Below are positions 7,159 to 10,012 of a DNA stretch of 64,000 nt, in pieces (position 1 is the first letter of the stretch; every line of letters begins with the position of its first letter). The stretch is taken from the NCBI RefSeq assembly GCF_011516935.1, contig NZ_WOTF01000002.1, forward strand, positions 248,001 through 312,000. The letters run 5' to 3'. Under the pieces are notes generated by a model. That model did no database searches. It had not been told where the DNA came from and saw only the letters and a program-made list of their open reading frames with translations. This stretch comes from Acetobacter farinalis. GTDB taxonomy: Bacteria > Pseudomonadota > Alphaproteobacteria > Acetobacterales > Acetobacteraceae. A program made the position numbers and the translations under genes.

Positions 7159-7989
7159 ATGGACATGAAACAGGAAAAACCCGCGCGTGTTCTGTCCATT
7201 GCGGGAAGCGACTCGGGCGGCGGGGCGGGCATTCAGGCCGATATCAAGACCATCACGGCGCTGGGTGGCTATGCCATGACAGCCATCACGGCGCTGACCG
7301 CGCAGAACACGCAAGGGGTGCGGGATATCCTACCTGTGCCAACCGCCTTCCTGCGCGAGCAGATACGCTGTGTGCTGGAGGATCTGGGGGCGGATGCCAT
7401 CAAGACCGGAATGCTGGGCGGGGGTGATGAAATCCAGTGTGTTTGTGAAGAAATTTCCCGCTACCGCACTATGTATGGTGCGTGCCCTGTTGTTGTAGAT
7501 CCGGTAATGGTTGCAAAGGGGGGCGCCAGTCTTCTGGCCGAAGCCGCGTTGTCCGGCCTGAAAACCCGGCTTTTTCCTCTGGCAACAGTGCTGACTCCCA
7601 ATCTGCCGGAAGCGGAAAAACTGACAGGTATGACAGTCACATCTGTTGAACACATGCGCCTTGCCGCGCAGACGCTGCGTGCGGAAAGTGGTGCTGCCGT
7701 TCTGGTTAAAGGCGGACATCTTGCCGGGGAAACGCTGGTGGATGTTTTGCTGGATGATTGTGGCTTCAAAGAGTTTTACGACACGCGTATCGCCACGCGC
7801 CACACGCATGGTACAGGGTGCACGCTGGCCAGTGCACTGGCCACCGGGCTGGCGCAAAAACTCCCGCTGCGCCGGGCGGTCGAGCAGGCCCGTCTTTATG
7901 TGCGGCAGGCAATTCTGGCTGCGCCCGGACTCGGGGGGGGAGCCGGGCCATTATGGCATGCGCACAGATGGTATGAAAAACCTGTTTAA
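7159..7989 (+). CDS. thiD: hydroxymethylpyrimidine / phosphomethylpyrimidine kinase
   Basis: Phosphorylates HMP and HMP-phosphate for the pyrimidine half of thiamine. It is a ribokinase-fold protein: N-terminal GSDSGGGAGIQAD (16-28), the DPVMVAKGG region, and the C-terminal anion hole with catalytic residue in HTHGTGC (C221). Its 276 residues are normal for ThiD. ATG 7159 or 7165 could start it. No TPP riboswitch is visible upstream; the gene is 24 nt behind glmM and probably shares its transcript. It converges with the minus-strand response regulator, leaving 22 bp between stop codons. Confidence 0.94.
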   Translation: MDMKQEKPARVLSIAGSDSGGGAGIQADIKTITALGGYAMTAITALTAQNTQGVRDILPVPTAFLREQIRCVLEDLGADAIKTGMLGGGDEIQCVCEEISRYRTMYGACPVVVDPVMVAKGGASLLAEAALSGLKTRLFPLATVLTPNLPEAEKLTGMTVTSVEHMRLAAQTLRAESGAAVLVKGGHLAGETLVDVLLDDCGFKEFYDTRIATRHTHGTGCTLASALATGLAQKLPLRRAVEQARLYVRQAILAAPGLGGGAGPLWHAHRWYEKPV

Positions 7990-8011: not shown

Positions 8012-8770
8012 TCAGTCTCCTACAGCCTGAAACTGCTGGTGTTCAATCATGGCGGGCATCGGGATTATCTGTCCTGCTGGAAGAGACGCCTTTCTGGCTT
8101 TTGGGTCATGCAGGATATAGCCTCGGCCCCATACGGTTGAAATCAGGTTATCAGCGCCAGCAGCCTGAAGTTTTTTCCGAAGCTTGCAGATGAAAACATC
8201 AATGATCTTGATGTCCGGTTCATCGCGCCCTCCGTACAGATGGTTGAGGAATGTTTCCTTGGTCTGCGCGACACCTTTGCGCAGAACCAGCAGCTCAAGG
8301 ATGGAAAATTCCTTGCCTGTCAGATGTACGGGCTGGTCGTGCACGGTTACGGTATGGCTGTTCAGGTCCAGCCGGAGGTCTCCCACCTGGGTAACGGGGT
8401 GCGCAAAGCCGCTGGAACGGCGCAGAATGGCCTGAATCCGGGCAACAAGTTCGGCTGGGTCAAACGGTTTGATCAGATAATCATCCGCCCCCATGGAAAA
8501 AGCCCGGATTTTTGCATCCGGCTGGTCCAATGCCGAAAGGATGATGATAGGCGTTGAAATTTTCAGTAAACGCAGAGAACTGATGACTTGATAGCCATCC
8601 ATATCCGGCAGATTCAGATCAATAACGGCAAGGCCGTAATCATAGTTCCGCAGCATTTCGATGGCGTTTCTGCCAGAACGCGCCAAATCAGCAGAAAGTC
8701 CGGCTTTTTTCAGTGTTGGCAAAAGCAGGCGAGCAGACGCTGCTTTGTCTTCAGCAAACAGGATACGCAT
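8012..8770 (-). CDS. CtrA-family response regulator (OmpR/PhoB type)
   Basis: A 252-residue transcription factor. The receiver has the acid pair E7-D8, phospho-acceptor D51 (VIDLNLPDMDG), and K101 in YLIKPFD. The winged-helix domain carries a stretch nearly diagnostic for CtrA: LTGKE, FLNHLYGG, DEP and KIIDVFICKLRKKL, ending in TVWGRGYILHDP. The receiver half is much more diverged from well-known CtrA sequences than the DNA-binding half, so it may be a paralogue rather than the cell-cycle master regulator itself. ATG 8770 follows GGGAGGGAA. A perfect TTAA-N7-TTAA box lies about 100 bp upstream. It is alone on its strand between thiD and an AT-rich spacer. Confidence 0.9.
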   Translation of the reverse strand: MRILFAEDKAASARLLLPTLKKAGLSADLARSGRNAIEMLRNYDYGLAVIDLNLPDMDGYQVISSLRLLKISTPIIILSALDQPDAKIRAFSMGADDYLIKPFDPAELVARIQAILRRSSGFAHPVTQVGDLRLDLNSHTVTVHDQPVHLTGKEFSILELLVLRKGVAQTKETFLNHLYGGRDEPDIKIIDVFICKLRKKLQAAGADNLISTVWGRGYILHDPKARKASLPAGQIIPMPAMIEHQQFQAVGD

Positions 8771-8824
8771 CGGGTTCCCTCCCCCTTGGGAAGCGCGTGA
8801 CACCTTATAGTTGTATCCGCGCAT

Positions 8825-9541
8825 AGAAATCTATTTTTACGTGCCTTCTTGGAAAGATAAACAGAAATTAACCATTTTTTAACCCCAAAGATGATTGGCG
8901 TCTGGTGATTACGTTTTCTGGTTGTGTGCTCAGAAAAAAGCAATCACTGGTTGAAAATAATAACGGCTGATTTTCATTTTGCTATCGGGAATGAATAAAT
9001 TTTTTATGAAAATGAGACAAAAAAGTGGTGTATTTATAAAAATAACATAATTATTTCCCAATCATTAAAATAATATCATCAATGCAAATTCTAGAAGAGT
9101 TTCAATATAAAATAGTAATGTAATGCGTATTAGGTTCATAAAGAAAATAGGAAATAAAATTCTTCTATAAATTACAAGAATTTAACAAACTTAAACCTTA
9201 ACAAATTTTGGTGACATCAAGGCTATTATGCATATTACTGAATTATAATTTCTCTTTTGTGCTGCCGTGCATGTGTAATTATGCAGATCATAAATATTTT
9301 TTCATACTGAAATCCTTACGGATATCAGTTTTATTTCAAAATCTGCGTGACCTAAAAAAGCATATGTCTATTACTATAAAATATAAATATGGGTTATAAA
9401 TTCATTATTATCATAAATGGAAAAATAATTCTCGTTCTTCGCTGCTCAGGATGTAGTGTTCCGGTGTGTCTGGTCATCGCCTCCTGTTTCCAACTGCAGT
9501 AATATGTGAAGAAGGAAGCAGGGGTTCTTGCAGGAGGCTGG
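8825..9541. other. very AT-rich non-coding spacer
   Basis: About 700 bp between the CtrA-family gene and tsaE with no convincing gene. A hand count of 9001-9240 gives 54 G/C of 240 (22.5%), against roughly 60% in the neighbouring genes. It contains the CtrA box, three more TTAA half-sites at 9182-9201, many A/T runs, and a 63-codon open frame (9208-9399) with no ribosome-binding site or family resemblance. No canonical DnaA box was seen. It may hold promoters for both flanking genes, a small RNA, or decayed foreign DNA. Confidence 0.7.
8868..8882. promoter_or_regulatory. CtrA box, TTAA-N7-TTAA
   Basis: TTAA at 8868-8871 and TTAA at 8879-8882, separated by exactly seven bases, match the full CtrA consensus. 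The site is 98 bp upstream of the start of the CtrA-family gene, so autoregulation is the simple reading. The surroundings are AT-rich, which raises the chance of a random match. Confidence 0.55.
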
Positions 9542-10012
9542 ATGACACACATCACACGGGTTCTGGAGAGTGAAGAAGGAACCGTGCAACTGGCGCGTGT
9601 GCTGGCGGTGCTGGCACGGTCGGGCGATGCCCTGTTGCTTTCCGGCCCGTTGGGAGCGGGAAAAAGTGTTTTTGCACGCGCTTTTCTGCGCTGCTTTTGC
9701 GGGAACGATGCGCTGGAAGTGCCCAGCCCGACCTATACACTTGTACAAACCTATGAAGCACCTGCCTATACTGTGTCACATTTTGACCTCTGGCGGCTGG
9801 GCGGCCCGGAGGAACTGGAAGAACTGGGATGGGATGACGCGCGGGAAGGTATTGTGCTGGTGGAATGGCCGGAGCGGCTGGATGACCTGACACCGCCTGA
9901 TGCCTTACATCTGGTGCTGAGTGTGGATGCGCAGGGCGTGCGCACGGTTCGCCTGCAGGGCTGGGCGGACAGGCTGGATGAGCAGAGTCTGTCCCCCCGC
10001 TTTCCGGCCTGA
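9542..10012 (+). CDS. tsaE: tRNA threonylcarbamoyladenosine biosynthesis ATPase TsaE
   Basis: The ATPase partner of TsaB/TsaD in making t6A37 on ANN-decoding tRNAs. It has 156 residues, normal for the family. Walker A is GPLGAGKS (35-42); PSPTYTLVQTYE and the HFDLWRL and EWPERL motifs are typical of TsaE. ATG 9542 has a strong CAGGAGG seven bases upstream; the frame extends back to a GTG at 9506 without such a site. Only 15 bp separate it from addB, so the two are probably co-transcribed. Confidence 0.93.
   Translation: MTHITRVLESEEGTVQLARVLAVLARSGDALLLSGPLGAGKSVFARAFLRCFCGNDALEVPSPTYTLVQTYEAPAYTVSHFDLWRLGGPEELEELGWDDAREGIVLVEWPERLDDLTPPDALHLVLSVDAQGVRTVRLQGWADRLDEQSLSPRFPA

Follow-up and report, generated by a model that had tools for sequence, protein, structure and literature searches.

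A sole CtrA orthologue with an intact phosphorylation site in Acetobacter farinalis, within a ChpT-less clade where that site is mostly replaced

We find that the regulator encoded at positions 8012-8770 (minus strand) of the Acetobacter farinalis DNA analysed here, a stretch of 64,000 nt that we call the window, is the orthologous and only CtrA of its genome, and that it retains a complete phosphorylation site and a conserved effector domain in a group of bacteria that has lost the relay to CtrA and in which most relatives have altered the site. The reading that we favour, and consider probable, is that this CtrA has been freed of a lost CckA-ChpT phosphorelay, the site being replaced in most relatives, and that here it can be phosphorylated by a donor other than ChpT. 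The preliminary description of this DNA had offered either a second CtrA-like regulator or the only CtrA of the organism with a changed input; our results support the latter and extend it, ChpT and SciP being absent and a canonical CckA not being found by the searches given below.

The 252-residue protein, read from the ATG at 8768-8770 down to 8012, is an OmpR-type regulator consisting of a receiver and a winged helix. The first in-frame ATG is at 8824; the conserved start MRILFAED at 8770 is kept in relatives, preceded by a GGGGAACCC leader. The receiver (REC) domain (residues 1-118, 8417-8770; PF00072 match at residues 3-113) has all of its catalytic residues: the acidic pair E7-D8 (8747-8752), of which D8 is gone in many ChpT-less relatives; the phospho-acceptor Asp51 (codon GAT, 8618-8620), which is Glu, His, Thr, Asn or Ser in most of them; Ser79, the Ser/Thr of the receiver switch (8534-8536); and Lys101 (8468-8470). 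The winged-helix DNA-binding domain (residues 125-224, 8099-8398; PF00486) carries the CtrA recognition segment DEPDIKIIDVFICKLRKKL, and is followed by a C-terminal extension (residues 225-252, 8015-8098), all of these features lying on the minus strand. Domain order, recognition segment, single copy and conserved phosphorylation site are as in Caulobacter crescentus CtrA; unlike Caulobacter CtrA, the A. farinalis protein lacks the terminal Ala-Ala expected of a ClpXP-degraded CtrA and ends in QAVGD. Its conserved neighbours, both on the plus strand, are the convergent thiD (phosphomethylpyrimidine kinase, 7159-7989) and, past an AT-rich intergenic region, the divergent tsaE (9548-10012).

The best NCBIfam match of the protein is CtrA (NF045991, 311.5 bits; next family 172.8 bits), and no other gene of its genome scores above 170.7 bits with the CtrA model. 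The score lies below the curated NF045991 cut-off of 350 bits, in a model named for Rhodobacterales-type CtrA; because most ChpT-less CtrAs, and some from ChpT-bearing Acetobacteraceae, also fall under that cut-off, it does not define the orthologue here. Of the 37 genomes searched in this genus, taken broadly, 34 had exactly one CtrA gene, and a profile search at E 1e-60 found none in the other three, the small G012 and G016 (1.5-1.7 Mb) and the 2.6-Mb G020. Genomes of g32 and g50 in the family are likewise without CtrA at this threshold. The DNA-binding half had been described as near to CtrA, and this is borne out, effector identity being 58-65% to CtrAs of other Alphaproteobacteria and 26-36% to the eight closest OmpR paralogues of the same genome. 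The accompanying remark that the receiver is much diverged holds for overall identity (42-48% to the CtrAs of other Alphaproteobacteria, unlike the 68% which those share among themselves), but not for the catalytic residues. Trees of the receiver alone and of the effector alone, both of which included the eight paralogues, group the A. farinalis protein squarely with all orthologous CtrAs (support 89 and 99), and the paralogues all fall apart from them. The gene order glmM-thiD-ctrA-tsaE-addB is conserved in Acetobacter and in a Komagataeibacter-like genome (a label assigned in our analysis on sequence and genome size, and not a taxonomic name from the records), and in Gluconobacter glmM, often with thiD, is still beside ctrA. 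The nearest CtrAs are those of an uncultured Acetobacter (91%) and of A. persici, A. orleanensis, A. cerevisiae and A. malorum (84-86%). In A. orientalis (L094) and A. papayae (L106) the ctrA frame is broken and the match falls in two segments, reflecting a pseudogene or an assembly error.

A second CtrA-like paralogue, working alongside a canonical CtrA at shared sites, could appeal to the NCBIfam score under the CtrA cut-off and to the strongly diverged receiver. We rejected this reading, to which we give next to no credence: the searched congeners that have CtrA have one such gene each, both domain trees and the orthologous position agree, and no other gene passes 171 bits with the CtrA model in an assembly of 74 contigs with a stated completeness of 99.99%. 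The preliminary description had named as grounds for refutation a place for the protein among orthologous CtrAs in a tree, or a box not conserved in related species, and on those terms the reading of a second regulator is refuted.

The partners of CtrA in the Caulobacter CckA-ChpT-CtrA phosphorelay tell a different story, A. farinalis being without ChpT and SciP and having no recognisable canonical CckA; of the genes that the preliminary description had proposed to search for, a genome search returned one ctrA, the gene discussed here. With PF10090, ChpT was found in none of the 37 genomes of the genus and in 78 of 200 order-ring genomes (E 0.001). Because Acetobacteraceae ChpTs score low with PF10090, a tuned profile was built from 15 of them and run against those 200 genomes. 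Scores were about 100-249 bits for genera with ChpT and no more than 37 bits within the genus of A. farinalis, where the match falls in the kinase domain of a hybrid kinase of about 750 residues (768 in A. farinalis itself). None of the 37 genus genomes has SciP, and all 37 have GcrA. The best match to the CckA model is 360-566 bits in most other Alphaproteobacteria with CtrA, at most 254 bits in the genus and about 202 bits in A. farinalis; the scores in the genus do not exceed those of paralogous hybrid kinases, and CckA may have diverged past recognition there. The A. farinalis genome does have two CckA-like hybrid histidine kinases, one being the 768-residue protein (PAS-HisKA-HATPase-REC) and the other (REC-PAS-HisKA-HATPase-REC) adjoining another REC-kinase gene; these genes are at L162 (G000:C1:471-473k), L170 (C1:469-471k) and L174 (G000:C2:67-70k, the 768-residue kinase). 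The CtrA-less G020 retains GcrA and both of these kinase types, so the presence of the kinases does not depend on CtrA. The chpT gene of many ChpT-bearing Acetobacteraceae is separated from ctrA by only about 2-7 kb (for example in G167:C1, G173:C8, G080:C37 and G094:C8), unlike the arrangement at the locus of the acetic acid bacteria. A 226-residue open reading frame in genus g55 (G193:C9:308-895) gives a weak, 33-bit, near full-length match to the ChpT profile and is possibly a highly diverged ChpT.

The absence of chpT from this part of the Alphaproteobacteria has been reported before: Brilli et al. 2010 (PMC2877005) record it for ‘cluster D’ Rhodospirillales in which ctrA, gcrA and ccrM are kept, and PMC8116508 gives low frequencies of chpT and cckA in Rhodospirillales, both from orthology searches. 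In the available parts of the two papers there is no account of an accompanying change of the CtrA phosphorylation site, whether lost or replaced, nor of an exception in which it is intact.

To follow the site across the family, CtrAs were gathered from named loci and about 120 genomes, numbered as A. farinalis E7, D8, D51, S79 and K101. In ChpT-bearing Acetobacteraceae it is intact in 52 of 52 distinct CtrAs (23 genera), D51 and K101 being present in every one and D8 in all but one, which has Glu. Among 70 distinct CtrAs from ChpT-less genomes (18 genera) the whole site is kept in six and altered in 64. The six belong to the A. farinalis group (G000, G009, G010, G024, G034), a small group comprising A. 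orleanensis, A. cerevisiae, A. malorum, A. persici and A. farinalis, and to a further family member, G110. Residue 51 of the 70 is Glu in 38, Asp in 14, Thr in 8, His in 5, Ser in 3 and Asn in 2. Glu replaces Asp51 in Gluconobacter (D-S-E-S-K at positions 7-8-51-79-101), Neokomagataea (E-S-E-S-K) and Komagataeibacter-like genomes (E-D-E-S-K); in other Acetobacter the replacement is His, Thr, Asn or Ser, frequently together with loss of Lys101 or Asp8, the site reading E-N-H-S-D in A. pasteurianus, E-D-T-S-E in A. syzygii and relatives and E-D-S-S-H in A. peroxydans. Some Acidisoma CtrAs (L111, L112), and also L113, have sites DNDSR or DTDSR versus the intact EDDSK of Acidisoma L108, a possible independent loss of the site.

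On the tree, label counts give two changes of ChpT and one informative independent pair. Because there is about one ChpT loss on the tree, its association with site loss is not statistically independent, and amounts in essence to a single evolutionary event after which the site changed many times. ChpT loss permits site loss without forcing it, because the site is kept in G110, and in two or three other Alphaproteobacteria in which ChpT was undetected (G053, G054 and the incomplete G060).

Laboratory work in Caulobacter uses D51E as a phosphomimetic form of CtrA (PMC12186491), and the same substitution occurs naturally in Gluconobacter, Neokomagataea and the Komagataeibacter-like genomes where, unlike the laboratory allele, it is evolutionarily fixed over whole genera. 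We found no report of a natural D51E CtrA in the literature searched, and a search on CtrA in acetic acid bacteria returned nothing relevant. A. farinalis CtrA is itself without D51E, and its functional link to this substitution is indirect because its own site is intact. The CtrAs of A. pasteurianus and of A. syzygii and its relatives are of the aspartate-less receiver (ALR) type surveyed in PMC4395418, the main text of which does not mention CtrA or the acetic acid bacteria; unlike the changes in that survey, the change of Asp here is within one orthologous master regulator.

Conservation falls most in the ChpT-less clade at positions that include 80, 8, 55, 51 and 101 (the phosphorylation site), and at 70-80% effector identity the receivers are 54.6% identical in ChpT-less genomes versus 68.6% in ChpT-bearing ones and 66.8% in other Alphaproteobacteria. 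The altered receivers are nonetheless not dead weight and are still functional, because their dN is well below dS. For residue 51, tree label counts give nine changes over all states, four of them between Asp and Glu. Parsimony leans towards Asp51 having been regained in the A. farinalis group, Asp being nested within a Glu51 background; the replacement codons of the sister group (CAY, AAC, ACC and AGC) end in a pyrimidine and can be reached from an Asp codon in one or two steps, an argument for Asp51 in the common ancestor. That D51E locked the CtrA of acetic acid bacteria in an active form, set by its level, and that the A. farinalis group then regained Asp under a new, non-ChpT phosphodonor, is a scenario that we put forward only tentatively.

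Upstream of ctrA lies a 730-nt AT-rich region (68% AT) in which a textbook CtrA box had been noted. The box is there, as TTAACCATTTTTTAA at 8868-8882, an exact TTAA-N7-TTAA 98 bp before the start codon, in this respect like that upstream of Caulobacter ctrA, and it is the only one in the window (0.06 expected). The significance attached to it was not borne out: under a first-order Markov model the probability of one or more boxes arising by chance in the 730-nt region is about 0.15, the box is not enriched genome-wide (18 sites versus 36 for the reversed control pattern), and it is missing at the aligned position in six of the six closest relatives, which mostly have TCAAAATAAGATAAAT there. 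Most close relatives (L064-L069) have upstream of ctrA a palindrome, AAGATAAA-TTTCTG-TTTATCTT, corresponding to 8854-8876 of the window; in A. farinalis its right arm TTTATCTT is at 8854-8861 (minus strand) and its left arm is overwritten, where half of the CtrA box sits. GANTC (CcrM) sites are absent from the 300 bp upstream of ctrA in A. farinalis and variable in relatives.

Among 69 ChpT-less genomes, nine have TTAA-N7-TTAA upstream of ctrA, versus 0-5 for the other spacings from 2 to 13, in counts that include related sequences and so are not independent; autoregulation is plausible because spacing-7 boxes are over-represented in this way across ChpT-less relatives. A TTAA-N7-YNAA sequence stands upstream of ctrA in 18 of 18 named Gluconobacter loci, at -127 to -129 and with a varying interior (in the 17 loci listed singly; L085-L105), and is a likely CtrA autoregulatory site, in species with a natural Glu51 CtrA. 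As a pointer to autoregulation the box is weak in A. farinalis and better supported across the wider clade.

How the input to CtrA changed could be explained otherwise. The receiver may have drifted in relaxed decay after ChpT was lost, so that D51E would carry no phosphomimetic meaning, CtrA would act unphosphorylated or through residual protein contacts, and the A. farinalis group would merely have yet to lose its site. Replacements as unlike as His, Thr, Asn, Ser and Glu, the loss of K101 and D8 as well, and the sister-group codons that suggest Asp in the common ancestor would all fit such decay, as would the fact that unphosphorylated CtrA is active in other Alphaproteobacteria, for example Rhodobacter. 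Against it, Glu accounts for most of the replacements (38 of 56 non-Asp residues), well ahead of any other residue, Glu51 is stable across whole genera while D8 is lost, and purifying selection persists on the receivers; we regard decay as possible, though unlikely.

Alternatively, the relay could be intact but too diverged to recognise, with CckA represented by a hybrid kinase such as the 768-residue protein and an unrelated phosphotransfer protein taking the place of ChpT. The two CckA-like hybrids of the A. farinalis genome would fit such a relay, and substitute phosphotransferases were suggested by Brilli et al. 2010 (PMC2877005). The retention of both kinases by G020, which has no CtrA, speaks against it however, and a conserved relay to CtrA is implausible in most relatives because their residue 51 is unable to accept a phosphoryl group; we judge this alternative improbable.

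We therefore return to a sole CtrA released from its relay. On this proposal the CckA-ChpT phosphorelay feeding CtrA would have been lost at, or close to, the root of the lineage that joins the acetic acid bacteria with their nearest kin, with CtrA retained as a DNA-binding regulator (as shown by the conservation of effector domain and locus) outside phosphorelay control. The phosphorylation site would then have been replaced in most lineages, most often by D51E, a mimic of the phosphorylated state, or broken outright. In the altered lineages CtrA would presumably work without phosphorylation, governed by its own amount, including through autoregulation, and in the Glu51 lineages it may be locked in an active-like state. 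In the A. farinalis group, where a phosphorylatable CtrA with non-ChpT input is most likely because the full site is present, the phosphoryl group could come from a histidine kinase acting directly, perhaps one of the two CckA-like hybrids, or from a small phosphodonor.

CtrA is a textbook master regulator switched by phosphorylation. The ChpT-less clade offers a natural experiment on whether CtrA phosphorylation is dispensable and on how a master regulator gets rewired: across a clade in which the relay has gone, the switch residue has been replaced, in many cases by exactly the mimic that geneticists use for the ‘on’ state. The A. farinalis group, with its intact switch and no known relay, is the place in which to seek a replacement input.
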